Below, in pieces: positions 1 to 40,912 of a DNA stretch of 64,000 nt. This DNA is from Casimicrobiaceae bacterium (GTDB lineage: Bacteria > Pseudomonadota > Gammaproteobacteria > Burkholderiales > Casimicrobiaceae): NCBI GenBank assembly GCA_026646885.1, contig JAPKHK010000006.1, forward strand, positions 124,001-188,000, written 5' to 3'. Below the pieces are notes generated by a model. It was not told the DNA's origin. It saw only the letters and a program-made list of their open reading frames with translations, and searched no databases. Positions within the stretch are counted from its first letter, which is position 1. Each line of letters opens with the position of its first letter. Both the position numbers and the translations under genes were made by a program.

Positions 1-716
1 AATCGACTTACTTGGAGGCGCTCGACCAGACCAATGCCGACCGCCTCTTCGCGGACGCCGTTGCGGCACTGTTGCGCTGGCAGGCGGCCAGCCGCGAGGG
101 GGTGCTGCCGCCCTATGACGAGGCCTTGCTGCGCCGGGAACTCGCGCTCTTTCCGGAGTGGTATGTCGGCCGTCACCGGCAGCTCACCCTGAGCGAAGCG
201 CAGCGTGCCACTTTGGAGGCGGCTTTTCAGCTCATCGTGGACAATAACCTCGCCCAGCCCAAGGTCTACGTGCATCGCGACTACATGCCGCGCAATTTGC
301 TGTTGAGCGACCCCAATCCCGGGGTGATCGATTTCCAAGACGCGGTTTTCGGCCCCATCAGCTATGACCTCGCCTCGCTCTACAGGGACGCCTTTTGCAG
401 CTGGGAAGAAGAGCGGGTGCTCGATGGGTGCGTGCGCTATTGGGAACAGGCCCGCCGCTTGGGACTGCCGGTGCGGGCGGACTTCGCTGATTTCTACCGC
501 GACGTGGAATGGATGGGGCTGCAGCGCCACCTCAAGGTCCTGGGCATCTTCGCCCGGCTCAAATATCGCGACGGCAAAGCGAGCTACCTCGCTGATACAC
601 CACGATTTGTCGGTTACGTGCGCCACACCGCCGGGCGCTATCGCGAACTGGCACCGCTTCTGCGCCTCTTCGACGAGATCGAGGGCGCGCCGCCGCGTGC
701 CGTCTACAGCTTCTGA
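1..716 (+). CDS. amgK: N-acetylmuramate/N-acetylglucosamine anomeric kinase AmgK (3' part)
   Basis: This is the C-terminal part of a cytoplasmic sugar kinase of the aminoglycoside phosphotransferase fold. The frame is open to the window edge, so the start lies outside. About 237 residues remain of a family usually near 340. The catalytic loop is visible as HRDYMPRN near base 273, followed by the metal-binding DFQD near base 330. AmgK phosphorylates the anomeric carbon of MurNAc or GlcNAc released during wall turnover. The next gene is murU, the uridylyltransferase that uses the product, as in Pseudomonas. That pairing makes the assignment firm. The gap to murU is about 70 bases, so the two are probably one operon. 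Confidence 0.9.
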   Translation, partial: STYLEALDQTNADRLFADAVAALLRWQAASREGVLPPYDEALLRRELALFPEWYVGRHRQLTLSEAQRATLEAAFQLIVDNNLAQPKVYVHRDYMPRNLLLSDPNPGVIDFQDAVFGPISYDLASLYRDAFCSWEEERVLDGCVRYWEQARRLGLPVRADFADFYRDVEWMGLQRHLKVLGIFARLKYRDGKASYLADTPRFVGYVRHTAGRYRELAPLLRLFDEIEGAPPRAVYSF

Positions 717-785
717 GCCGCGCGCATCTGTCCGCATGAAGGCTAACCACATTTGCCCGCGCCAAGCGGCCCGCGCGAGGACACC

Positions 786-1481
786 TTGAGAGCGATGCTA
801 CTGGCGGCCGGGCGCGGCGAGCGTATGCGCCCTCTGACCGACTTCAGCCCCAAGCCGCTACTTTCTGTGGGGGGCAAGGCGCTGCTCGATTGGCACTTGG
901 AGAAGCTCGCTGCCGCGGGGGTGCGCGAGGTGGTGATCAACGTCGCCCATCTCGGCGAAGCGATCGTCGCGCACTGTGCTGAGGGCCATCGCTGGGGACT
1001 GGCGCTGCGTTATTCGCGCGAACCCCGGCCCCTGGAGACCGCCGGCGGCATCGCCACGGCGCTGCCGCTGCTGGGCGAGGGCTGCGTGCCGATCATCAGC
1101 GCCGACGTCTTCTGTGGCTACGACTATGCCGCCCTGGTCGATCAGGCCCGCCGGATCGCTGCGTCGAGCGCGGGGCCGCGGCTGCACCTGGTGATGGTGA
1201 AAAACCCGGACTTCCACGGTGGCGGCGATTTTGCCCTCGAACAAGGGCGCCTCACCCTGGCGGAGGATGAACGCCTCACCTACGCGAGCCTGGGGGTGTA
1301 TGATTTGGCGCTTTTCCGCCCCCTGCCGCGAGGCACGAGGATGAAGCTCACCCCTTTCTACCGCGAATGGGTCGCGCGGGGCCTCGTCTCTGGCGAGCGC
1401 TTCGACGGCACTTGGCACAACTTGGGGACGCCAGAACAACTGGCGGCCCTGAACGCCCAATTCTCTTCACAAAAGAGCTGA
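786..1481 (+). CDS. murU: N-acetylmuramate alpha-1-phosphate uridylyltransferase MurU
   Basis: This 231-residue nucleotidyltransferase makes UDP-MurNAc from MurNAc-1-phosphate and UTP. It completes the salvage route that bypasses de novo MurA/MurB synthesis, the route known to lower fosfomycin sensitivity in pseudomonads. The N-terminus carries the signature LAAGRGERMRPLTD followed by PKPLL, the nucleotide-binding loop of sugar-phosphate nucleotidyltransferases. I chose the TTG start at 786 because it gives MRAMLLAAGRG, the usual family N-terminus, and has an AGG-rich ribosome site five bases upstream. ATG at 795 is the alternative. It follows amgK directly. Confidence 0.93.
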   Translation: MRAMLLAAGRGERMRPLTDFSPKPLLSVGGKALLDWHLEKLAAAGVREVVINVAHLGEAIVAHCAEGHRWGLALRYSREPRPLETAGGIATALPLLGEGCVPIISADVFCGYDYAALVDQARRIAASSAGPRLHLVMVKNPDFHGGGDFALEQGRLTLAEDERLTYASLGVYDLALFRPLPRGTRMKLTPFYREWVARGLVSGERFDGTWHNLGTPEQLAALNAQFSSQKS

Positions 1482-1492
1482 GAGCCCGAGAC

Positions 1493-3520
1493 ATGGACAA
1501 CCCCTTGCTGGATTTCCGCGGCTTGCCGCATTTCGACCGATTCACCGTTGCTTGCGTCACCCCCGCGATCGAAGCGCTCATTGCGGAAAACCGTGCCGTG
1601 ATCGCGCAAGTTGCGGCCGACACCGCCGCCCCGACCTGGGAGAACTTCGTGGCGCCCTTGGAAAACGCGGCCGAGAAGCTCGACCGGGCTTGGAGTCAAG
1701 TGGCGCACCTCAACGCTGTGCGCAATTCGCCGGAATTGCGAGAGGTGTACAACGCGCTTTTGCCCAAGCTCACCGAGTTTCACTCCGAGGTGGCGCAAAA
1801 CGAAAGGCTCTACCTGCGCTTCAAGACCTTGGTCGGTTCCGCGGCCTACGCTCGCCTCAGCGGCACTCAGCAGCGTATCGTTGACAATGAACTGCGCGAC
1901 TTCAAGCTCGGCGGCGCCGAACTCGACGCCGCCGCCAAGCTGCGCTTCAAGGCGGTGCAAGAAGAACTGGCGAGCCTTGCGGCCAACTTCGAGCAGAATG
2001 TGCTCGACACTACCGACGCCTACGGCCTGGTGATCGAAGACCCGGCGCGGCTCGCCGGCCTGCCCCAGGATCAGATCGAAGCTGCCCGGGCCGAAGCCGA
2101 GCGAGCTGGCGTCGCCGGTTGGCGCTTTACCCTGCACGCGCCCTCGTATCTACCGGTGCTGCAATATGCCGAGGATCGCGACTTGCGTGCCACCTTGTAT
2201 CGCGCCTATGTCACTCGAGCTTCCGAGTTCGGTTTACCCGAACGCGACAACACGCAGATCTTGCGGCGCATTCTCGCCCTGCGCCTCGAAGAAGCCAAGC
2301 TCTTGGGCTACCGCCATTATGCAGAGGTGTCGCTGGTGCCGAAGATGGCGCAAACGCCCGAGGACGTGCTGGTCTTCTTGCGCGAACTGGCCAGCAAGGC
2401 GCGCCCTTACGCCGAGCGCGATTTGGCCGAACTCAAAGACTACGCCCGCGGCGTGGGCCTCACGGAGGTCGCGGCCTGGGATCTCGCTTTCCTGAGCGAA
2501 AAACTGCGCCTCGCTCGCTACGATTTCTCCGATCAGGAAGTGAAGCAGTACTTTCCGGAAAACCAAGTATTGGCAGGTCTTTTCAAGGTGGTGGAGAGCA
2601 TTTACGGTCTGCACATTCGCGAAACCAAGGCGCCGGTTTGGCACGATACCGTGCGCTTCTTTGAAATCACCGAACAAGGCCGCCCGGTGGGGCAGTTCTA
2701 TTTCGACCTCTACGCCCGCCCCAACAAGCGCGGCGGCGCCTGGATGGACGACGCCATCAACCGGCGCGCCGTGAGCGAAGGCACGCAGCGGCCGGTGACC
2801 TACCTCACCTGCAATTTCTCTGCCCCCGTGGGCGGTAGGCCAGCCCTCTTCACCCACGACGAAGTGCTCACGCTCTTTCACGAATTCGGCCACGGCCTGC
2901 ACCAGCTTCTCACCGAGATCGACCACTTGGGCGCCTCGGGCTTGGCCAACGTCGAATGGGACGCCGTGGAATTACCCAGCCAGTTCATGGAAAACTTCTG
3001 CTGGGAGTGGGAGGTGTTGAAGCACATGACCGCCCACGTCGATACGGGCGCGCCGCTGCCGCGCGCGCTCTTCGAGAAGATGATCGCCGCCAAGAACTTC
3101 CAGAGCGGCTTGCAGATGCTGCGCCAGCTGGAGTTCTCGCTCTTCGATTTCGTCATCCATAGCGACTACGACCCGGCCGGTCCGGTGACCCCGCTGCAGG
3201 TGCTGGAATCGGTGCGCCGCGAGGTGGCCGTCGTGTTTCCGCCGGAATTCAACCGCTTTCCGAATGCGTTCACGCATATTTTCGCTAGCGGCTACGCTGC
3301 GGGCTACTACAGCTACAAGTGGGCGGAGGTGCTCTCCGCGGACGCCTACAGCCTGTTCGAAGAGCTGGGTGTGCTATCGCCGGAGGCGGGGCGGCGCTTT
3401 CGTCAGGAGGTGCTGGCTAGAGGGGGCAGCCGCCCGGCGCTGGAGTCTTTTGTCGCTTTTCGCGGACGGCCCCCCCGCATCGATGCTTTGTTGCGGCATA
3501 ATGGTATGACTTCGGCATGA
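1493..3520 (+). CDS. prlC: Oligopeptidase A, M3 metallopeptidase
   Basis: This 675-residue cytoplasmic zinc peptidase belongs to family M3A and cleaves short peptides, including degraded signal peptides. The zinc motif HEFGH is at residues 463-467, and its length matches E. coli PrlC (about 680). The N-terminal sequence MDNPLLDFRGLP is typical. The start at 1493 is preferred because the upstream extension of the frame runs into murU and is not family-like. It begins 11 bases after murU, so it may be transcribed with the salvage genes. Nothing looks unusual in the catalytic region. Confidence 0.96.
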   Translation: MDNPLLDFRGLPHFDRFTVACVTPAIEALIAENRAVIAQVAADTAAPTWENFVAPLENAAEKLDRAWSQVAHLNAVRNSPELREVYNALLPKLTEFHSEVAQNERLYLRFKTLVGSAAYARLSGTQQRIVDNELRDFKLGGAELDAAAKLRFKAVQEELASLAANFEQNVLDTTDAYGLVIEDPARLAGLPQDQIEAARAEAERAGVAGWRFTLHAPSYLPVLQYAEDRDLRATLYRAYVTRASEFGLPERDNTQILRRILALRLEEAKLLGYRHYAEVSLVPKMAQTPEDVLVFLRELASKARPYAERDLAELKDYARGVGLTEVAAWDLAFLSEKLRLARYDFSDQEVKQYFPENQVLAGLFKVVESIYGLHIRETKAPVWHDTVRFFEITEQGRPVGQFYFDLYARPNKRGGAWMDDAINRRAVSEGTQRPVTYLTCNFSAPVGGRPALFTHDEVLTLFHEFGHGLHQLLTEIDHLGASGLANVEWDAVELPSQFMENFCWEWEVLKHMTAHVDTGAPLPRALFEKMIAAKNFQSGLQMLRQLEFSLFDFVIHSDYDPAGPVTPLQVLESVRREVAVVFPPEFNRFPNAFTHIFASGYAAGYYSYKWAEVLSADAYSLFEELGVLSPEAGRRFRQEVLARGGSRPALESFVAFRGRPPRIDALLRHNGMTSA

Positions 3521-27166: not shown

Positions 27167-30100
27167 ATGCCCGTGTCACGCCGCTGTATCCTCGCCCTCT
27201 GCACCGCGCTGGCGTTGGTCGCCAGCGGGTTGGCCCAGGCCGGTTCGAGCACCGTCAACCTGCTGCTCGACCTCGATCGCAACGGTGCCACGGGTTGCAC
27301 GGTGAACCTCGCGGGCGGGAGCATGACCGGGGTCGAGCGGGTGTACAGCGCGTTGGCGTCCACCACCACCAGCAGCGCCACGGTTTTGCGCCTGGAGCGG
27401 CGCATTTGCACCGGCGGCGTGTTGGGCGCGCCGGAAATCTACGACGCCGGCACTTGGCCGGTGGGTATGGGCAACGGCCAGGGGGGCATGGCGGTGATCG
27501 AGGCGAGCTTGCCGCTCGCCGCCTTCACCCCCGGTGTGCAGCCACTGGCAAGGGTGAGCACGGACAACGGATCAGGCGGCGAAGATGTCTCGGCGAGTTT
27601 CAACATCGTTTGGGCCGCCGCCGACAACGGCGCGGTTCCGGTCCCCTTGTCACCCGCCTTGCTTTTGGCCCTGGCCGCGGTCTTGGCCCTGCTGGCGGCG
27701 CAGGCGCTGCGCCGGGGTACGGTCGCGGGGCGGTTTTTGGGTATGCTGGCGGTGTGCCTGGTCTCCGGCTTGGTGTTGGCCGCGACGGCCATACGCGACG
27801 GGCAGATTGGCGATTGGGCGGGAGTAGCACCCGCACTCACCGACCCCGCGGGAGATGCGCCGCCCAACGCCGACTTGGTGGCGGTCTTTTTCCAGAATGA
27901 CGCCAATCAACTCTATTTGCGTTACGACCTCGATGTGCGATTTGACGGCGCGGCGGTAAACCAAGCCCCCCAAGTCAACGCCGGGGCCAACCAAACGATC
28001 ACCCTTCCGGCCTTGGCCAACCTTGGCGCCAGTGCCACCGATGACGGTCTGCCCAACCCGCCGGGTGCACTGAGTTTTCTTTGGAGTCAAGTCAGCGGAC
28101 CAGGGACGGTAACCTTCGGCAACGCCACGGTCTTGAACACCACCGCCAGTTTTTCTCAGGCGGGCAACTACACCTTGCGCTTCACCGCCAACGACGGCGC
28201 ATTGAGCAGCTCGGCGGACACCCAAGTCACGGTCAGCCCGACCGCCCCGGTGGCGGGCCCGACGCTTTTGCCTGTCGCTAACCGCAACCTGACTCTGGGT
28301 TCGCGTTTTCAGCAGATCCTGCAGGCCACGCATAGCGACGCCAACATGCTGCTGAGTTTCGCGCTGACTCAGGCCCCCAGCGGGGCCGGCCTGAGCCCTG
28401 CGCCTTTGATCGACTGGACCCCCACGGCCGCGCAGCTCGGGGCACACGATTTCACCGCGCGCGTGACCGATGGCAATGGCCAAAGCGCCAGCGCGAGTTT
28501 TCGCGTCACCGTGGTGCGCGGAAACCAGGCGCCGGTTTTGGCCGGGCAGGCCGATGCCACGCAGCCGATCGGGCCGGTTTTCTCGCGCACGCTGAGCGCC
28601 ACCGATCCGGATGGCGATGTGCTGAGCTACGCGCTGGTTGCCGGCCCGCCCGGCATGACGCTCTCCGGCGCAACCCTGACCTGGCCCACGGCCGCGCGGA
28701 CACCGGGCGAGTACACCGTGACCGTGCGAGTCAGCGACCCCGGCGGGTTGAGCGATGTCCGCACTTTCCGCATTCGCTTACTGGCCGCCGCGGCACCGCT
28801 TGCCCAGAACGACTACTACCGCATTGCGGCCGGACAAATTCTCGATGTACCGAGCCTCGGCGTGCTTTCCAATGACCAGGCGAGCTACGCCCGGAGCTTG
28901 AGCGCGCAAAAACTTTCCGACCCCGCCGCGGGGAATGTCAGCGCTTTCGCCGCCGATGGCGGTTTCACCTTTCAGGCGCCCGCCACACCGCCCGGAACGC
29001 CCCTCGATTGGCAGAAGCAGCGCAACTTCAACAGGACCTGGAGTTACGGCGCCCATGAAGTCATTGGCGACCTCAATGGCGACGGCGCGCCCGATATCAT
29101 CACCCACAACCTCAATGCCGATATCCGCGCCTCCTCGGGGGCTGATGGCACCGAGCTGTGGGCCATCGATACCACCGGCGCCAGCGATTGCACGGTGATG
29201 ACCAACAGCTCCATGAATCATCGCGTGTTGGCTGACATCGACGACAGCGGCCATCCGGCTTACGTCTTTACCACGTCTTGCACGCGTGACGGCAGCGTCT
29301 GGGCCGACCGCATCATCGCTTTCGATCACCTGGGCAAAGTGAAGTGGGTGTCACCGCCGGTGTCCAAACAAATTCCCGAGATCCGGCGTAACCCGACCCC
29401 GGTGCCACCGGGCGGCTTCAACATCGGCGGTCTGACCTGGAATCGTGGCCTCAGCGTCGCCCGGCTCACCGCCGCGGGAGCGCCAACGCTCTTGATGCGC
29501 GCGGAAATCACCACCAATGACGGCTATTTGTACTACCTCGACGAGTTCAACGCGGGTCATTACGCCGGTTGCCGCGCCATAACGGGCTTGGTCGCCGATG
29601 AAAACCTCGCCTGCCGGGCGACCGTGCTGATCTCCGGTGCCGACGGCTCGGTGCAGCAAGTGCTGGTGGCCCCGAACCCCACCAACACCCGAATCTCTGG
29701 AGGACCCGAGGCGCTCAAAGAACTGCCCCCCATCGCCTTTGACGTCGATGGTGATGGCCGAGTGGATTTGGTTTCCGGCGGCGAAGTGTGGAAACAAAAT
29801 GCCGGCGGCGGGTTCGATTTGGCCTGGCAGAGCAACGCCCCGGTCAACGACACCGCGGTGGCCGACCTCGATGGAGACGGTCAGGCGGAAATCCTCTTCC
29901 TGCGCAGCGCCGGCGCCGCCACCGCCGATCGCGGCCTGTTCATTTATACCCACAATGGCACGCTGCTTCGCCATCTTCCCTTGCAGACCTATTGGTTCAC
30001 CCCCATGACCATCGCCGATGTCGATGGCGACGGGCGCAGCGACATCGTGTTCGGCGCCGAGGGCAAGGTGCTGGCCTTGCGTGACGACGGACGCATCATT

Positions 30101-33100
30101 TGGACTTACGTCGTGCCAGACGAAGCGCCCAGCGATCCGATCTTCGGCCCCCTCTACACCCCGGCGACGGAGGGCTTTCGCGTCAGCAACAGCGCAGCGC
30201 AGGTCTACGACCTCGATGGCGACGGCATCAAAGAAGTCATCTTCGCGGCCGACAGCCGCATCATGGTGCTCGATGGCCGCAGCGGCGAGCGCAAGCTCGA
30301 CCCCTACTGGACCTTCTCCCGCAGCTATAACGATGTCGGTACCTTGGCGCTGGTCGATATGAACAACGACGGCCAGGTGGACATCCTCCAAAACGCCCCC
30401 TTCGCGTTTAATTGCGGCTTTGTCGGCCTCCCTCCCGGCGCGTGCGACTCCGTGGTCGGCCCGGTGGTGATGGCCGCCGGCACAGGCACGAGCTGGAACC
30501 CCGGCCCCAAGGCTTGGCATCAACTGCAATACCGCGCCAGCTCCATCGGTGCGAGCAGCCAGGTGTTGCACGACACCACCGTAGCTCGCGTCTTCCGCAC
30601 GCCCGAGCAGCAAGGCAGCGTGGTTGACCCGCGCCTGACGCAGGCGGTTTCCTTCAGCTACCGGGCCTACGACGGGTTCGACTACTCAGCGCCCGCCGAC
30701 GTGGTAATCACCATCGACCCCGAGAACCGGCCGCCGATCTTCACCTCGATACCACCTCACAGCCTGTATCAGCAATTCGCGCCCAACCCGCCCGGCGGAT
30801 TGGTCACCCACTATTATCAGCCGGCGGCCTACGACCTCGACCCCGGCGACACCGTGAGTTACTCGCTGAAATCGGCGCCCGCGTGGGTGACCATGGATGT
30901 CGGCACTGGCCGCATCCGTTTCGAGCCCACTTGCGGCTCGTATGGAAATCCCTGCAATTGGGGCTGGACGTTCGTGGTGCTGACCGCGACCGACAGCCGC
31001 GGTGCCAGCACGGATCAAGCCTTCCTGGTCAACCTCACGGTTTACGCGGTGACCGTACCCAATGTCGTCGGCCAGCCTCTTGCCGCGGCGCAAGCCACCT
31101 TGCTGGCGAGTGATTTGCAAGGCGTGGTTTTCGCGGAGATCTTCAGCGCAGCACCGGCCGGCACGGTGCTCGCCCAAGAGGCCGTGGCGGGCACGCTGGT
31201 CGGCCAGTTCGACGATGTGCGCCTCACCGTCTCCAAAGGCCCCGCGCCGGTGATCATGCCCGACGTGGTGGGCACTGATTTGGATGCCGCTCGTGCTCGC
31301 CTCGAAGCGCTGGGTATTCCCTTCGATATCCAAGTGCAAAGCTCCAGTGTGGTGCCGCGCAACGAAGTCATGGCGCAGGCGCCGGCGGCCGGCACGAGCT
31401 TCGTGCCGGCACCGGGCAATCTGGCCACCCTGACGGTGGCCTCGAGCCCCCTGCCAGCCGGCACGATCACCGGACTGCTGGTTGAACCGGGCAGCGCCGC
31501 GCGGCTCATCGGCGAAACCGTGCCGCTCCAGGCGACCGCGCTTTTTGCCGACGGCACCGCGACCGATGTCACGCTCAATGTCGTGTGGCTCTCCACCGCG
31601 CCCGCCGTGGCCAGTATCGATGCCACCGGCGCGGCGCAGGCCTTGTCGGCCGGCAGCACGCAACTTCGCGCCACCTTGGGTGCCCACAGTGCCGAGGCCA
31701 CCCTCACGGTCAGCACCGTGCTCGGCGACAATGTCTTGCCCATGGCCGAGATTGCAACCCCGAGTGACGGGAGCGAAGTGGTCAGCCCCGTCGATGTCTT
31801 GGGAACAGCAAGTGACGCCAATTTCCTACGCTATGAGCTGCACCTGGCGTCTGCTGGGGAAGAGGATTGGACGCTTCTCGCCGAGGGTACGTTGCCGGTG
31901 AGCAATGCGCTCCTGGGCCGACTGGATCCGACGGTGCTGATCAACGGCGCCTACAGCCTGCGCTTGCGCGCTTACGACCGCGGCGGCAATGTCGCCGAGG
32001 CCCTCACCAGCGTGGTGGTGCGCGGTGAACGCAAGGTCGGACTCTTCACGCTGGGTTTCACCGACCTCAACGCGGCGCTCTCCGGCGTGCCGATCACCGT
32101 CACGCGCACCTACGACAGCCGCGACAAGGCGCGCGGCGATTTCGGCATCGGCTGGCGTCTGGGGCTCAACACCCTGCGTTTGCGCACCAATCGCGTGCTG
32201 GGCACCGGCTGGACGCGCACCCAATCGGGTATTTCCTCCAGCCTCAGCGCCAATGGGCCGCATTTCGTTACCGTCACGCTGCCCGACGGACGCGTCGAAA
32301 CCTTCGACCTGGTGCTTGCGCCGATGGCGGGCGTGGGGGTGCTCACCAGCCTTCAAGTCACCCAACTCAGCCCGCGGCCGGGTACTCAAGGGCAACTGGA
32401 ATTGCTCGACAACCCCGGGCTTTTGGTTCTGAACGACGGCGCGCGCGATGTGCTGGTCGATGATGTGACCCTGGAAATCTTCGACCCGCGGCACTTCCGC
32501 TACACCACACTGGACGGCACGAAAATCGAAATCGACCGCCTCGAGGGCGTCAAGAAAGTCACCGACCGCAATGGCAACGCCATTACCTACGGCCCCAATG
32601 GCATTCTGCACAGCAACGGCCAAGGCATCGTCTTCGCTCGCGATGCGCTCGGGCGCATCCGCTCGATCACCGATCTCAATGGCGCGATCCAGACCTACCA
32701 ATACGACGCCAACGGCGACTTGGTGGGCCACACCGACGCCACCGGCGCGGCCTCGACTTACGCCTATGACCGGCGGCACAACTTGATCGATCAAAAAAAC
32801 GCCCTGGGCGTCTCGATGACCCGCAACGAATACGACGCCCAGGGGCGCCTCATCCGCGTGATCGATGCGCAAGGCAACCCGATCGTCTTCACCCTCAACG
32901 ATGCCGCCAACGAGCAGTTGGTGACCGACCGGCGCGGCAACGTCGCACGGTTGGTGTATGACAACGAGGGCAACGTCACCCGCGACGAACGCAACGTCAC
33001 GCTGGAGGGCGGCGCGGTGCTGGCGGTAACCACCACCGCTTACGACGCCCTGGGCAACGAAACCGTCAAAACCAATGCTGACGGGCAACGAATCGAGCGG

Positions 33101-36100
33101 ACCTTTAGCGGCTTGCTGCCGACGGCAACACGCACCGATCCCGCTGGCTTGAACCTCACCACGACCTTCACCTACAACGCGGCCAATGAGGTCACCGCCG
33201 CCACCGATCCGGGTGGACGGGTTTTTGCTTTCAGCTACGATGCCGCCGGCAACCTGACCGCGGCCCAGTTGCCAGGCTTCGGCGCGAGCACGGTGACGAG
33301 CAATGCGCAAGGCCAACCCACCGAGCGCATCGACGCACTGGGCAACCGCACGGCGATGAGCTACGACGCCGCGGGGCGCCTGATCCGCGAGGAAATTTAC
33401 AGCGGCGCCAGCTTGCTGCGGCGCATGGAATGGAGCTGGGATGGCAACGGCAACAAGCTGAGCGAAACACTCTATCGGACCATCGGTGCGGTGCTCACCC
33501 CGCTGACTACCACCATGGCTTATGACGCGGCCAACCGCTTGATCCGGCGCACCGACCCGGCGGGTGGCGTGACGCGCTGGGAATATGACGCAGCCGGCCG
33601 CAACACCGCGATCATCGACGCCCTCGGTCGCCGCAGCACGCACACCTATGACACCCTGGGACGCAAGACCCGCAGCGATCATCCGGACGGCACGTTCGAG
33701 ACCACGAGCTTCGATGCCGAGAACAACATCGTGTCGGAAACCGATCGCGCCGGTCGCACCACGACGCACGTCTATGATGAACTGAATCGCCGCATCCGCA
33801 GCACCGGCCCGGACGGCGCGGTCACCCAAACGCTGTACTCCGCGGGCGGGCGCCTGATGGCCACCATCGACGCGCGCGGCAACCGTACCGATTTCACCTA
33901 CGACGCGGCCGGCCGGCGCCTATCCACCCAGGCGCCGGCGGTGCCCAATGGGCCAGGCGGGCCGCTGGCACGACCCACCGTCACGCAGACCCTCAATAGC
34001 CTCGGGCAGCCGCTCACCCGCAGCGACCCATTGGCGCGGGTCACCAGCTTCGAGTATGACGCCCAAGGGCGGCTCACCAAAACCACTCATCCCGAAGGCA
34101 GCTTCGCCACGCAAACCTGGGACGCCCTCGGTCGGCGCAGCAGTGCAACCAACGAAGAAGGCCAAACCACGAACTACAGTTACGACGCGCTCGGCCGGCT
34201 GATCGGCGTATCGGGTTTCGCCGGCAGCGCCACTTATGCCTACGACGAAGCCGGCAATTTGTTGAGCGAAACCGACGCGCTGGGCCGCAGCACCACCTAC
34301 CAGTACGACACCCTCAACCGTCTCACCCAGCGCCAATACCCCGGCGGGGAGACCACGCGCTTTGCTTACGATGCGGTAGGCAACCTGGTTGCGCGCACCG
34401 ACGGCATGGGGCGGGTGATCGGCTGGGCCTACGACACCATGAATCGGCCGATTTCCAAGACCCTGCCCGGCGGCGTCACCGTCGCCACGACTTATCGACC
34501 CGACGGCCAGCGCGCTTCGGTGACCGACCCCCGTGGCGTTACCCACTACAGTTACGACACCGCCGGGCGCCTGGCCTCGGTGACCCATCCGACCGGTGAA
34601 GTGTTGAGTTACAGCTACGACGCCGACGGCAATCTCACCGCGCTTACCAGTCCGGCCGGAACCCAAACCTACAGTTACGACGCATTGGCCCGATTGAGCG
34701 CCGTCGCCGCGTCCGAAGGAAGCGCCACGCTGGCTTACGACCTCGCCGGCAATCGTCTGCGCCAAACGCTCGCCAACGGCATCATCAGCGAGGCGAGCTA
34801 CGACAATCGCAATCGCCCGGTGAACCTGGCCCACAAGCTCGGGGCCACGGTCTTGCAGTCCTACACCACCGCGTGGTCACCGGCCAGTCGGCGCACCAGC
34901 ATCACCGAGGCCGACGGTTCGGTGGAAAGCTACAGCTACGACAGCCGCGGCCGGCTGGCGGGCGCCAACCGCAGCGGCACCGGTCCGCTGACGCTGACCA
35001 TGGCCTATGACGCGGTCGGCAATCGCACGCAGCTGGTGCGCAACGGCAGCACCACCAACTTCAGCTACGACCTCAATGATCGGCTCAGCGGCGATGGCAG
35101 CGCCAGCTATAGCTATGACGCCAATGGCAACCTGGTCAGCCGCAGCGAAGGCGCCAGCGTGACCAACTACGCATGGAGCGCCGAGGATCGGTTGATCGGC
35201 GTCAGCGCCACGGGGGTCAATAACCAGTACGTCTATGACGCCGATGGCCGTCGCGTGGCGGCCAACACCAATGCCGGCAACACGCGTTTTCTGGTCGATG
35301 CGCGCAACCCCACGGGTCTTGCGCAAGTGCTGGAAGAGCGCGAGGCGAGCAGCGGCAACCTGGCGGCCCGCTACACCATCGGTCGCGAGCTCTTGACCAT
35401 GGAACGCGGCGGCACCGCCAGCAGCCTGCTGGCCGACCCCTTGGGCAGCGTGCGCGCCCTTACCAGCGCGGCTGGCAACATCACCGACACCTATCGCTTC
35501 GACCCCTATGGCAATGTGCAAGCGGCCAGCGGCAGCACCGTCAACCCCATCGGCTGGCGCGGCGAGCGAGTTGAAGAATCTGGCCTGGTCGATCTGCGCG
35601 CGCGGATGTACTCGCCAGCGACCGGGCGATTCCTGAGCCGCGACCCGTTTGAGGGACGAGCGGCCGATCCCGTTTCGCGGCATCGCTACTTGTACGCACA
35701 TGCGGATCCGGTCAACTCGATCGATCCGAGCGGTACTACGACCTTGACGGAGCTTACCTTCGTTCAGGGGGTGCAATCGATTTTGCGGGTCGCCCAATCG
35801 GGTAGCGAAGTCGCGAAGGCGTGCGGTCTCTTGGAAGGCGCAAAGGAAGTGGGGAACGCCGTCGCGCTCTTGCAAATCGCCACGGCGGGGGCTGCCTTGG
35901 CGGCGCAAGCGGGTCTAGCCGTACAGGCCGCTAGCGGTGGAAAGGGGATGGCCGTCGCTGGCGGTTTCGAGACCGAAGAACTGCCGGAGCCCGGATTGAA
36001 GAAACTGGGCATTCATTTGCAAGGCAGCGGAGGTCAGCTTGGCGTTGCCTTCAGCTTTGATTTCCATAACGGGGCCTTAGGATTGGCGACCCTGAACTTG

Positions 36101-36415
36101 ATGCCGCCTCCGGTCCGTTTGGACGGTGTGATCGGCGGCGGCATAGAGTATCTGATCAAGGAATTCAAAGTTTGCGGAACTGTTACCGCCGGTAGGGTTG
36201 TGGCCAAGGGATCGATGACCGGTGGAGCGAGCGCAGTGGGCGGCGGTATCTATGGCACGCACCGTGCGGCCGTGGACATCGAAGCGAACTTGTTAAGGGG
36301 CGGGCTGAAATTCCAGCTACCGTTCCTGGAATATTCGTTTGGCGCGACCGAAATGAGCATGAGCATGTTTGGTGGTTTGCTGCCGATATTCAACGTGCCA
36401 CACTCGCCGAACTAG
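27167..36415 (+). CDS. Giant RHS/YD-repeat surface protein
   Basis: This 3082-residue polypeptide is a mosaic. A signal peptide (1-27) and a small secreted domain are followed by PVPLSPALLLALAAVLALLA (about 158-185), which looks like an IPTL-type sorting tail, and another hydrophobic stretch to residue 210. PKD/cadherin-like domains lie at about 265-540, FG-GAP/VCBS repeats (DLNGDG, DVDGDG) at about 620-1080, and two PASTA domains at about 1294-1426. A bacterial Ig group 2 domain spans about 1430-1515. Dozens of YD repeats run from about 1840 to 2760. The RHS core (YDPYG-like DPYGNV, GRFLSRDPF) ends near 2835. The last 226 residues are variable and match nothing I know. ATG 27167 has GAGG upstream. 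Confidence 0.9.
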   Translation: MPVSRRCILALCTALALVASGLAQAGSSTVNLLLDLDRNGATGCTVNLAGGSMTGVERVYSALASTTTSSATVLRLERRICTGGVLGAPEIYDAGTWPVGMGNGQGGMAVIEASLPLAAFTPGVQPLARVSTDNGSGGEDVSASFNIVWAAADNGAVPVPLSPALLLALAAVLALLAAQALRRGTVAGRFLGMLAVCLVSGLVLAATAIRDGQIGDWAGVAPALTDPAGDAPPNADLVAVFFQNDANQLYLRYDLDVRFDGAAVNQAPQVNAGANQTITLPALANLGASATDDGLPNPPGALSFLWSQVSGPGTVTFGNATVLNTTASFSQAGNYTLRFTANDGALSSSADTQVTVSPTAPVAGPTLLPVANRNLTLGSRFQQILQATHSDANMLLSFALTQAPSGAGLSPAPLIDWTPTAAQLGAHDFTARVTDGNGQSASASFRVTVVRGNQAPVLAGQADATQPIGPVFSRTLSATDPDGDVLSYALVAGPPGMTLSGATLTWPTAARTPGEYTVTVRVSDPGGLSDVRTFRIRLLAAAAPLAQNDYYRIAAGQILDVPSLGVLSNDQASYARSLSAQKLSDPAAGNVSAFAADGGFTFQAPATPPGTPLDWQKQRNFNRTWSYGAHEVIGDLNGDGAPDIITHNLNADIRASSGADGTELWAIDTTGASDCTVMTNSSMNHRVLADIDDSGHPAYVFTTSCTRDGSVWADRIIAFDHLGKVKWVSPPVSKQIPEIRRNPTPVPPGGFNIGGLTWNRGLSVARLTAAGAPTLLMRAEITTNDGYLYYLDEFNAGHYAGCRAITGLVADENLACRATVLISGADGSVQQVLVAPNPTNTRISGGPEALKELPPIAFDVDGDGRVDLVSGGEVWKQNAGGGFDLAWQSNAPVNDTAVADLDGDGQAEILFLRSAGAATADRGLFIYTHNGTLLRHLPLQTYWFTPMTIADVDGDGRSDIVFGAEGKVLALRDDGRIIWTYVVPDEAPSDPIFGPLYTPATEGFRVSNSAAQVYDLDGDGIKEVIFAADSRIMVLDGRSGERKLDPYWTFSRSYNDVGTLALVDMNNDGQVDILQNAPFAFNCGFVGLPPGACDSVVGPVVMAAGTGTSWNPGPKAWHQLQYRASSIGASSQVLHDTTVARVFRTPEQQGSVVDPRLTQAVSFSYRAYDGFDYSAPADVVITIDPENRPPIFTSIPPHSLYQQFAPNPPGGLVTHYYQPAAYDLDPGDTVSYSLKSAPAWVTMDVGTGRIRFEPTCGSYGNPCNWGWTFVVLTATDSRGASTDQAFLVNLTVYAVTVPNVVGQPLAAAQATLLASDLQGVVFAEIFSAAPAGTVLAQEAVAGTLVGQFDDVRLTVSKGPAPVIMPDVVGTDLDAARARLEALGIPFDIQVQSSSVVPRNEVMAQAPAAGTSFVPAPGNLATLTVASSPLPAGTITGLLVEPGSAARLIGETVPLQATALFADGTATDVTLNVVWLSTAPAVASIDATGAAQALSAGSTQLRATLGAHSAEATLTVSTVLGDNVLPMAEIATPSDGSEVVSPVDVLGTASDANFLRYELHLASAGEEDWTLLAEGTLPVSNALLGRLDPTVLINGAYSLRLRAYDRGGNVAEALTSVVVRGERKVGLFTLGFTDLNAALSGVPITVTRTYDSRDKARGDFGIGWRLGLNTLRLRTNRVLGTGWTRTQSGISSSLSANGPHFVTVTLPDGRVETFDLVLAPMAGVGVLTSLQVTQLSPRPGTQGQLELLDNPGLLVLNDGARDVLVDDVTLEIFDPRHFRYTTLDGTKIEIDRLEGVKKVTDRNGNAITYGPNGILHSNGQGIVFARDALGRIRSITDLNGAIQTYQYDANGDLVGHTDATGAASTYAYDRRHNLIDQKNALGVSMTRNEYDAQGRLIRVIDAQGNPIVFTLNDAANEQLVTDRRGNVARLVYDNEGNVTRDERNVTLEGGAVLAVTTTAYDALGNETVKTNADGQRIERTFSGLLPTATRTDPAGLNLTTTFTYNAANEVTAATDPGGRVFAFSYDAAGNLTAAQLPGFGASTVTSNAQGQPTERIDALGNRTAMSYDAAGRLIREEIYSGASLLRRMEWSWDGNGNKLSETLYRTIGAVLTPLTTTMAYDAANRLIRRTDPAGGVTRWEYDAAGRNTAIIDALGRRSTHTYDTLGRKTRSDHPDGTFETTSFDAENNIVSETDRAGRTTTHVYDELNRRIRSTGPDGAVTQTLYSAGGRLMATIDARGNRTDFTYDAAGRRLSTQAPAVPNGPGGPLARPTVTQTLNSLGQPLTRSDPLARVTSFEYDAQGRLTKTTHPEGSFATQTWDALGRRSSATNEEGQTTNYSYDALGRLIGVSGFAGSATYAYDEAGNLLSETDALGRSTTYQYDTLNRLTQRQYPGGETTRFAYDAVGNLVARTDGMGRVIGWAYDTMNRPISKTLPGGVTVATTYRPDGQRASVTDPRGVTHYSYDTAGRLASVTHPTGEVLSYSYDADGNLTALTSPAGTQTYSYDALARLSAVAASEGSATLAYDLAGNRLRQTLANGIISEASYDNRNRPVNLAHKLGATVLQSYTTAWSPASRRTSITEADGSVESYSYDSRGRLAGANRSGTGPLTLTMAYDAVGNRTQLVRNGSTTNFSYDLNDRLSGDGSASYSYDANGNLVSRSEGASVTNYAWSAEDRLIGVSATGVNNQYVYDADGRRVAANTNAGNTRFLVDARNPTGLAQVLEEREASSGNLAARYTIGRELLTMERGGTASSLLADPLGSVRALTSAAGNITDTYRFDPYGNVQAASGSTVNPIGWRGERVEESGLVDLRARMYSPATGRFLSRDPFEGRAADPVSRHRYLYAHADPVNSIDPSGTTTLTELTFVQGVQSILRVAQSGSEVAKACGLLEGAKEVGNAVALLQIATAGAALAAQAGLAVQAASGGKGMAVAGGFETEELPEPGLKKLGIHLQGSGGQLGVAFSFDFHNGALGLATLNLMPPPVRLDGVIGGGIEYLIKEFKVCGTVTAGRVVAKGSMTGGASAVGGGIYGTHRAAVDIEANLLRGGLKFQLPFLEYSFGATEMSMSMFGGLLPIFNVPHSPN

Positions 36416-37775: not shown

Positions 37776-39014
37776 GTGAGCCAAACGGCGCGCGCGCGCG
37801 GCCCTTCGCTGCTGGCGGTGTATTTTGCTTTTGCGGCGGCCTATTTCCTTTCTTATTTTTACCGCACCGCCAATGCCGTGCTTTCGCCGCGGCTCATCCA
37901 AGACTTGGGTCTCACCGCCGGCGACCTGGGCCTTTTGACCAGCGCCTATTTCGTGAGCTTTGGCTTGGCGCAGCTTCCTCTGGGTTTGCTGCTCGACCGC
38001 CACGGCCCGAGGCGGGTCGAAGGCACCCTGCTGCTCTTCGCCGCAGCCGGCGCCTTGCTCTTCGCCCTGGGGCAGAACTTCGGTACGTTGCTGGTGGCGC
38101 GGGGTCTCATCGGTTTTGGTGTCGCCGCCTGCCTCATGGCGGCGCTCAAAGGTTTCGTGCTGTGGTTTCCTGCGCCGCAGCGCCCGGCGTTGTCGGGCTG
38201 GATCATGGTGGCTGGTGGTAGCGGTGCGCTGGTCTCTACCGCCCCGCTCGAAGCCGCGCTGCACTGGACCGATTGGCGCGGCGTTTTTTTCTTTCTCGCC
38301 GGTGCCACAACGATCGTTGCCTTGGCTTTGTGGCGCACCCTGCCCGCGGGTCACGATGAGCACCCGCCCAGCCGCGCCGAACTGTTGGCCGGGCTTGTGC
38401 AGGTGCTGAAAAGCGCACGCTTCTGGTGGATCGCGCCCTTGGGCGGCTTGGGCATGGGCGGCTTCATGGCGGTACAGGGTTTGTGGTCGGTGCCCTGGCT
38501 CATGCAAAACGCGGGTTACAGCAAAGAGGGCGCGGCGGGCGTGCTGCTGGCGATGAGTGTCGCGCAATTGGCCGGTTACCTTGCCCTGGGCCTGGGCGCC
38601 AGCCGCTTGCAACGCTGGGGTTTGGCGCCGCGGCAGCTCTTCCTGTTCGGCTTCAGCCTGCACCTGAGCGCCTTGGGCCTGATGTTGGTTGCCAGCCCCG
38701 GCTGGAGTATCGTGCTCTGGTGTGCGTATGGTCTGGCGGTGACTTGCAACGTGCTGGGTTTCAATGTTTTGGCCGAAGGTTTTCCCGACCGCTTAGCAGG
38801 GCGGGCGAGCACGGCGCTCAACTTGATGATGTTCGCCGGTAGTTTCGTCAGCCAATGGGGCATCGGCGTGGTGATCGATGTCACCGGCGCTGGGGCCGCC
38901 TGGACGCCGGCGCAGGGTCTGCGCGCGGGTTTTGCGCTGCTCCTCGCCTTGCAGGTGGCGAGCTTCGTTTGGTTCGTTTGGGGCTGGCGTCGACACGCGG
39001 GAGGGCGGCCATGA
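37776..39014 (+). CDS. Major facilitator superfamily transporter
   Basis: This 412-residue inner-membrane carrier has 12 predicted helices and the MFS loop motif GLLLDRHGPRRVEG between helices 2 and 3. The overall look (FLSYFYRTANAVLSP at the start) is that of the nitrate/nitrite- or sugar-phosphate-like MFS group. The substrate is not apparent. GTG 37776 has GGAAAGGG seven bases upstream. Its stop codon overlaps the start of the TPR glycosyltransferase by four bases, so the two are translationally coupled. Confidence 0.83.
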   Translation: MSQTARARGPSLLAVYFAFAAAYFLSYFYRTANAVLSPRLIQDLGLTAGDLGLLTSAYFVSFGLAQLPLGLLLDRHGPRRVEGTLLLFAAAGALLFALGQNFGTLLVARGLIGFGVAACLMAALKGFVLWFPAPQRPALSGWIMVAGGSGALVSTAPLEAALHWTDWRGVFFFLAGATTIVALALWRTLPAGHDEHPPSRAELLAGLVQVLKSARFWWIAPLGGLGMGGFMAVQGLWSVPWLMQNAGYSKEGAAGVLLAMSVAQLAGYLALGLGASRLQRWGLAPRQLFLFGFSLHLSALGLMLVASPGWSIVLWCAYGLAVTCNVLGFNVLAEGFPDRLAGRASTALNLMMFAGSFVSQWGIGVVIDVTGAGAAWTPAQGLRAGFALLLALQVASFVWFVWGWRRHAGGRP

Positions 39015-40912
39015 AAGCGGGTCGGACTGCTTTCGCCCAGGCCACTGCTGAGGCTGCGCGTCTCTTTGCCGTTGGACAACTCGGCGCGGCGGCGCGGGCT
39101 TATCAGCAGTTGTTGGCGCAAGCGCCCGGCATGGCGGAACTGCATTTCAACCACGCGAGCGTGCTGCGCGCGATGAACGACGCCCAGGGCGCGTTGGCCG
39201 CTTTCGACCGGGCCGCCCGGCTCAGACCCGGCTGGGTGTCGCCGCTCATTCAGCAAGGCATTCTGCTCTTCGTGCTGGGACAACTCGAAGGGGCACAGAA
39301 GGTTTTCGAGCGCGTGGTGATGCAGGAGCCGAAAAACCTCGCGGGTCGGTTCAACCTCGCGCGCACGCTCATCGCCAACCGCCGCTGGCGCGTGGCCATA
39401 CCGCATCTGCAAGAAGCGCGGCAGCTCGCGCCCGACAACGAAGAGATCTGGATGACCTTGCGCGACACGCTGCGGCTCACTGGGCGGCATCAGGAAGCGG
39501 TCGAGGATTTCCTCGCGTTTGAAAAAGCCGGCAAACCTTCGGTGTGGACCGCCATCGCCAACCTCGCATCTTGTCGCAGCTTGGGCGACCCGGCGCGCGA
39601 GGCGAAGGCGGTGGCCGATGTGCTCGCGTGGCCTTTTGAGCTGGCCGATGGCGCCATCGTCGCCGAAGCGCTGATGCTCCTGCATTACTTCGACGTCAGC
39701 CGCGAGAATCTTTTCCGTCTCTACCAGACCTATGATCGCCTGCAAGTGCGACCCGAGAGAGTGCTGGCGAGCGCGCAGCGCAAGGCCGGCAAGCGCTGGC
39801 GCATCGGATATGTATCGGCGGACTTCCGACGCCACGTGATGGGGCCACTGATCGCGCAAATCTTGCTGGAGCATGATCGTGAACGCTTCGAACTTCATTG
39901 CTACTCGCTGGCACCGGCGGCCAACGAGGATGACCTCACCGAGGTTTTCCGCGAGGTCTCGCAGCGTTTCCTGCGCCTCGAAGATCTCAGCGACGAAGAA
40001 GCCGCGGCGGCCATCGCCCAGGATGACTTGGACGTGTTGGTCGATCTCATGGCGCATACCAGTTTCGCCCGGCCGGGCATCTATTTGCATCGTCCGGCGC
40101 GGCTGATGGTCACTCACCTGGGCTACCACGGCGCCTTGGGACTGCGAGAGATCGACTTCAAGCTCTCCGACCACCATGTCGATTTGCCGGAGAACGATCG
40201 CTATCTGATTGAAAAGCTCCTGCCCATGGGGGTTTGCGTGTTGCCCTTCCGCCACGTTGCCGCCTCGCCCGAGCCGCCGGCGACACGCGCAAACTTGGGG
40301 CTAAACGACGCTACCGTGGTCTTCGGTACTTTCGTCAGCGCCCTCAAGATGAGTCCCCGTTGTCTCGAAGTCTGGCGGCGCATCCTTGACGCCTTGCCCG
40401 AAGCGGTGCTCGCGTTTTCGCCTTACTCGGAAGCCGATCGGCCGGCGCTGCTGCGCCAAGCGCAAGGTTATGGCATCGCGCCGGAGCGCATCGTTTTCAT
40501 TCCCCCCGGCGCCAATCAGGGCGAGGCGAGGGCACGCTATCGGTTGGTGGATGTGGTACTCGACAGCTTTCCGTATTCCGGCGGCGACACCACCACCGCC
40601 GCGCTCGACATGCATGTGCCGGTGGTTACCCTGACCGGGTTGCGGCAAGGCGAGCGCATGAGCCTATCCATCCTCACGCATCTGGGAATAACCGAAATTA
40701 TTGCCCAAACCGAAGACGACTATGTCGCCATCGCAGTTAGCCTTGCGCGTGAGCCGGAAAGGCGTGCCGAGCTCGCGCAAACGATTGCGCAGCGACTCAG
40801 CGCCAGCGGCTTGGCTGATACGAAACGCTACACGCGCGCCCTGGAGGAAGCCTATCTCGAAGCCCTGCGCCGCAAGGGCCTGCGCCGTGACGAACAAACC
40901 CTCCCCGATTAG
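39011..40912 (+). CDS. SPINDLY-type TPR O-GlcNAc transferase family protein
   Basis: The 633-residue product has TPR repeats in residues 1-220 and a GT41-like catalytic domain from about 255. Catalytic-domain motifs are RIGYVSADFRRHVMG, then LMAHTSFARPGIYLHRPA and VVLDSFPYSGGDTTTAALDM with GLRQGERMSLSIL. In eukaryotes such enzymes transfer GlcNAc or fucose to Ser/Thr; bacterial members often modify flagellin or surface proteins, or glycolipids. The acceptor is unknown. It is coupled to the MFS gene upstream. Confidence 0.85.
   Translation: MKAGRTAFAQATAEAARLFAVGQLGAAARAYQQLLAQAPGMAELHFNHASVLRAMNDAQGALAAFDRAARLRPGWVSPLIQQGILLFVLGQLEGAQKVFERVVMQEPKNLAGRFNLARTLIANRRWRVAIPHLQEARQLAPDNEEIWMTLRDTLRLTGRHQEAVEDFLAFEKAGKPSVWTAIANLASCRSLGDPAREAKAVADVLAWPFELADGAIVAEALMLLHYFDVSRENLFRLYQTYDRLQVRPERVLASAQRKAGKRWRIGYVSADFRRHVMGPLIAQILLEHDRERFELHCYSLAPAANEDDLTEVFREVSQRFLRLEDLSDEEAAAAIAQDDLDVLVDLMAHTSFARPGIYLHRPARLMVTHLGYHGALGLREIDFKLSDHHVDLPENDRYLIEKLLPMGVCVLPFRHVAASPEPPATRANLGLNDATVVFGTFVSALKMSPRCLEVWRRILDALPEAVLAFSPYSEADRPALLRQAQGYGIAPERIVFIPPGANQGEARARYRLVDVVLDSFPYSGGDTTTAALDMHVPVVTLTGLRQGERMSLSILTHLGITEIIAQTEDDYVAIAVSLAREPERRAELAQTIAQRLSASGLADTKRYTRALEEAYLEALRRKGLRRDEQTLPD

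Follow-up and report, generated by a model that had tools for sequence, protein, structure and literature searches.

A conserved head with a putative internal exosortase H signal in a giant RHS protein of a Casimicrobiaceae bacterium

The window analysed in the present study, a stretch of 64,000 nucleotides from a Casimicrobiaceae bacterium (GenBank assembly GCA_026646885.1, contig JAPKHK010000006.1, positions 124,001 to 188,000 of the forward strand), contains the gene of a giant RHS protein, the features of which are listed in Table 1. Behind its head, the protein has a body with PKD, He_PIG/Big_9, FG-GAP, PASTA and Big_2 domains and RHS/YD repeats, and it matches the RHS models PF05593 (414 bits) and TIGR03696 (62 bits, cut-off 32.5). 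Within the head lies the segment VPVPLSPALLLALAAVLALLAAQALRRG, in which a V-P-L-S motif is followed by a 21-residue helix and R-R. An earlier note on this DNA had quoted the segment, which is indeed present, but the quotation had missed 'AL' before RRG; the further hydrophobic stretch that it described behind the segment was also recovered (FLGMLAVCLVSGLVLAATA, at about residues 189-207 in the sequence and modelled by AlphaFold2 as the helix at 186-204). No tie to sorting was observed among the gene neighbours (TPR, ketoacyl synthase III, MFS, glycosyltransferase 41 and Mur ligase). Near the giant RHS gene, positions 38855-40912 of the forward strand encode a TPR and glycosyltransferase family 41 (OGT/SPINDLY-like) protein, a candidate protein glycosyltransferase of bacterial type.

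Table 1. Features of the giant RHS protein and its gene (positions in the window)
Feature	Residues	Position	Strand	Remarks
Giant RHS protein, 3082 aa	head 1-261, then body	27167..36415	+	translation
Signal peptide MPVSRRCILALCTALALVASGLAQA	1-25	27167..27241	+	from the sequence; putative cleavage site; A25 nearly invariant
Beta domain of the head	26-150	27242..27616	+	conserved D35, D37, G43, C44, C81, E112
Putative internal IPTL-type sorting signal	157-184	27635..27718	+	VPVPLSP, helix 163-183, R182-R183
Second transmembrane helix	186-204	27722..27778	+	after positively charged loop
Post-helix module AIRDGQIGDWAGVAPALTDPAGDAPPNADLVAV...LYLRYDLDV	207-257	27785..27937	+	D211, G212, W217 invariant
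Body	262-3082	27950..36415	+	first ~1430 residues 40% identical to the L130 protein (see text)
RHS repeat-associated core	2778-2856	35498..35734	+	then ~225-residue C-terminal tip

The claim of a segment resembling a sorting signal near the start of the protein agrees with the IPTL tails of the same genome, with the exosortase H (XrtH) encoded there and with the invariant proline and arginine of the segment. First, a profile built solely from 11 C-terminal IPTL tails of the own genome was run on 37 head sequences, and it matched helix 1 with up to 27.4 bits (E 4e-9) and helix 2 with at most 1.8 bits. Residues 156-183 of the giant RHS protein obtained 9.4 bits with this profile, a score reached by none of 2000 shuffles of the segment (best shuffle 6.2). 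Second, ten IPTL_CTERM matches over the cut-off were observed in the own genome; nine are C-terminal, and the tenth is internal. This last match belongs to a paralogue of the giant RHS protein, a 2459-residue frame on the same contig, about 111 kb away, with a head 39% identical; its segment, IPALSNFGLALLSLLLSGVALYWLRR, scores 26.6 bits against a cut-off of 20.5, and a Pseudomonadales relative scores 28.7 bits. Third, P160, L169 and R182 are invariant among 23 aligned relatives, and a further set of 14 relatives, drawn from different phyla, shows no variation at P160 and L161 and hardly any at R182 and R183; in Acidobacteria heads the motif has its canonical form (IPTLGGW, VPTLKTW and IPTLSFW). 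The segment of the window protein is a VPLS variant that falls under both curated cut-offs (NF033207 and IPTL_CTERM). The giant RHS protein remained below the 20.5 bits of IPTL-CTERM (TIGR04174), without an IPTL_CTERM match at E<0.1, and about 2900 residues follow the segment, whereas TIGR04174 describes a signal at the C-terminus. When a 37-residue segment alone was scanned against NCBIfam, one model matched, weakly, namely NF033207, 'midcut-by-XrtH protein' (13 bits). The low scores in curated models might suggest a chance likeness, in which an ordinary Ala/Leu-rich membrane helix stands beside prolines; the result of the shuffles, the conservation of the heads in relatives down to 25-30% identity and the paralogue segment over the curated cut-off make this explanation hardly credible. 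Thus, sequence comparison supports the view that helix 1 differs from an ordinary membrane helix and is sorting-signal-like. The own genome also contains two tandem tiny frames of about 62-69 aa (L013 and L014, G000:C1:201479-201795), in which a signal peptide is joined to an IPTL tail (VPTLDE...RRRK) with little else; they resemble minimal sorting-enzyme substrates.

The head, of about 260 residues, is composed of a signal peptide, a beta domain with two conserved cysteines, the Pro motif with helix 1, an Arg-rich loop, helix 2 and a DG-x-x-x-DW module; 23 heads agree without exception at D37, G43, C44, C81, E112, P160, L169, R182, D211, G212 and W217. In the AlphaFold2 model, the beta domain is confident, helices are placed at 163-183 and 186-204, and the linker 152-162 before helix 1, which is where a protease would need access, is of low confidence. 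No Pfam model matched the beta domain. Its fold, although well modelled (pLDDT 85, pTM 0.80 for the N-terminal domain), had no counterpart at E<=0.001 in either the PDB or a viral structure library, and a sequence profile gave none either; a DOMON/CBM9-like identity found no support and was dropped. The loop between the helices has a net charge of +2 to +5 and is positive in all 33 sequences. The positive-inside rule relates such charge to membrane topology, and therefore the beta domain and the body are both predicted to lie outside, with the two helices as a hairpin. This topology agrees with the internal membrane anchor that the earlier note had considered, but the model of helix 1 as an ordinary membrane helix does not hold. 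The two predicted helices with their positive loop might also represent a permanent inner-membrane hairpin anchor. Its IPTL likeness would then be a relic, left by an ancient fusion, at which cutting has ceased; the VPLS form of the window motif, with its scores under the cut-offs, is consistent with such a relic. A relic should decay, yet the proline and arginine are (nearly) invariant across phyla and the Acidobacteria keep canonical motifs; moreover, helix 2, an equally good anchor, is free of such a motif, and the VPLS form is frequent in NF033207-type midcut proteins as well (AVPLSGW). We consider the relic unlikely.

Relatives of the head were searched with alignment A1 across 64 genomes of the bacterial family and were observed in 28 of them; the head is also present in other Proteobacteria and in Acidobacteria. 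In a genome collection of 84,980 species, a narrow alignment used as query revealed 15 head loci, belonging to Betaproteobacteria, Ca. Contendobacter, one Pseudomonadales MAG and three Acidobacteria/Holophagae, and the Acidobacteria head proteins have about 2100-2400 residues. The complete head frames in the family (n=22) range from 481 to 3285 residues, with a median of 2495, and the bodies behind the head vary: RHS, Big_3_5/Big_5 (Ig), cadherin-like repeats or a short unassigned domain. No complete stand-alone head ending at helix 1 was found in the 64 family genomes, the 399 order genomes or the 15 collection loci. The short frames L125, L126, L127 and L128 were rejected as stand-alone N-domains, being truncated by contig ends, and so was L165, a decayed copy. 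The latter (L165:8050-8466, Ca. Contendobacter) is broken by a stop and a frame change and lies upstream of an apparent integrase frame. The absence of stand-alone forms argues for a conserved architecture and not for a recent fusion. Thus, the stand-alone homologues envisaged by the earlier note are missing among complete frames, and its proposal of a small exported protein fused to an RHS gene fits the architecture (signal peptide, folded domain and IPTL-type tail) but not as a recent event. The note had named two results that together would speak against its reading, the lack of any stand-alone homologue and a normal membrane helix in all relatives; the first was observed and the second was not. 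In one family genome, two contigs (G021:C550 and C551) carry RHS proteins, L123 and L124, with frames of 2837 and 2920 residues, near-identical starts at helix 2 and the DW module and different following parts, and both contigs end within the head. Assemblies break at near-identical repeats, as in these two contigs.

The own genome encodes the enzyme that such a signal would require. Its XrtH scores 207.9 bits (cut-off 86) and is adjoined by an XrtH-associated membrane protein (164 bits, cut-off 35). The XrtH sequence has CNG, NVVR and then a His, in keeping with the Cys, Arg and His reported for EpsH (PMC1569441). XrtH exceeded the cut-off in 57 of the 64 family genomes, and since it is nearly universal there, co-occurrence within the family says little. 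Among the 399 order genomes, 22 had XrtH over the cut-off and seven had the head, and these seven all belong to the 22; the naive hypergeometric probability of this overlap is 6e-10, but it ignores kinship, and since six of the seven heads come from one family the independent weight of the match is small. Outside that one family, G392 has both head and XrtH. Named head-bearing genomes gave an XrtH match in 9/9 cases, over the cut-off in 6/9, where two of the nine are apparently G060 and G392, already counted in the other sets. In the three Acidobacteria the matches reached 73-78 bits, under the cut-off of 86, and XrtH was the best-scoring exosortase model. XrtH was not detected in the fragmented assembly of G021, in which head proteins are present. 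A single Ca. Contendobacter genome (G453) contains two XrtH matches over the cut-off.

Several known systems share parts of this arrangement. Like the proteins of IPTL-CTERM/exosortase H sorting (TIGR04174, TIGR04177; PF18203), the window protein has a Pro motif, a helix and a basic cluster, and its genome encodes the partner enzyme; unlike them, it carries the tail at residue ~160 of ~3000 and not at the C-terminus. The related PEP-CTERM signal lies near the C-terminus virtually without exception (PMC1569441). The RHS/YD-repeat proteins (PF05593, TIGR03696) share RHS repeats and the RHS core with the window body, but the window head is also common to non-RHS proteins. To our knowledge, ordinary RHS proteins have no internal exosortase signal. 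A mid-chain XrtH signal is already catalogued in NCBIfam as midcut-by-XrtH (NF033207), and the literature library searched contained no paper on XrtH or 'midcut' sorting and no published cleavage of the midcut type. NF033207 proteins, like the window head, have a signal peptide, a motif of the [VI]P-[LIV]-S type, a helix, a basic loop, a second helix and an exported C-terminal part, and they occur in XrtH genomes. The window head displays this set of features, that is, an internal IPTL-like motif with helix and basic residues, a second helix and a further exported domain, in a genome that encodes XrtH. The model matched the helix region in 14 of 23 heads at E<0.1, and on the window protein it obtained 16.9 bits with hmmscan and 23.6 in the genome search, below the cut-off of 45. 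The members and near-members found here have ~20-40 residues from signal peptide to motif and another C-terminal domain, several being 175-240 aa long; the window head, in contrast, has a 125-residue folded domain before the motif, the DG-DW module after it and bodies of up to ~3000 aa. Because of its score under the cut-off and its different N-domain and post-helix module, the window head is not filed as a member; by analogy, it is considered to work like an NF033207 midcut protein.

The strongest argument for the importance of the cut element comes, in our view, from a protein with a different head on a homologous body. Over 1604 alignment columns, the body of L130 (G021:C12) shares 40% identity with the window protein, beginning at window residue 262, directly past the end of the window head. 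The head of L130 ends at residue 155 and represents the NF033207 type, with 38.7-42.5 bits against a cut-off of 45; it has only the Pro motif, the helix, the basic loop, the second helix and, in general terms, a signal peptide in common with the window head. Since the Pro motif and the helix pair were kept when the rest was replaced, the cut element seems to be the point of the head. In other words, heads appear to be exchangeable cassettes.

We propose that residues 157-184 are probably an internal signal that XrtH recognizes and cuts, within a conserved 'midcut' head. First, the N-terminal signal peptide, to judge from its sequence, would direct the chain through Sec. Second, the 125-residue beta domain would fold in the periplasm and helix 1 would cross inwards; the Arg-rich loop would stay cytoplasmic, helix 2 would cross outwards and the giant body would be exported, a topology suggested by the loop charge and the structure model. 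Third, XrtH would make its cut at the Pro motif, on the periplasmic side, and the N-terminal domain thus separated would probably be passed to an acceptor, as are ordinary IPTL proteins. Fourth, the body would stay anchored by the two-helix hairpin or, more speculatively, might be freed by signal peptidase I at the conserved alanine after helix 2. This residue, A206, is nearly invariant among the head relatives and could be a signal-peptidase I site. With the positive stretch and the hydrophobic core before it, the alanine preceding the DG module even gives helix 2 the look of an internal signal peptide, which might do no more than restart the export of the body, with signal peptidase I and not XrtH as the cutting enzyme. 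As the whole explanation this is quite improbable, and it leaves the invariant Pro and Arg of helix 1 and the XrtH match unexplained; it can also hold together with the cut by XrtH.

If XrtH cuts within the chain, a single gene would yield two exported products in equal numbers (1:1). Moreover, the chances seem evenly balanced that XrtH acting on internal signals is a general polyprotein-splitting device, in which, across two phyla or more, unrelated giant surface proteins are fronted by interchangeable midcut heads. In that case, each gene would provide, at a fixed ratio, a small protein that is sorted and a giant protein that is secreted or anchored by the hairpin. Exosortase tails are defined by their position at the protein end. 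Giant proteins across phyla with such a tail in mid-chain, together with the exchange of two unrelated heads before one body, would imply a chain-splitting activity of the enzyme besides the trimming of ends. The function of XrtH is directly testable here, since the two products can be followed with two tags, an option that substrates with an ordinary C-terminal signal lack. The arrangement also hints at how giant RHS and Ig-repeat proteins might be tethered or released by Gram-negative cells.
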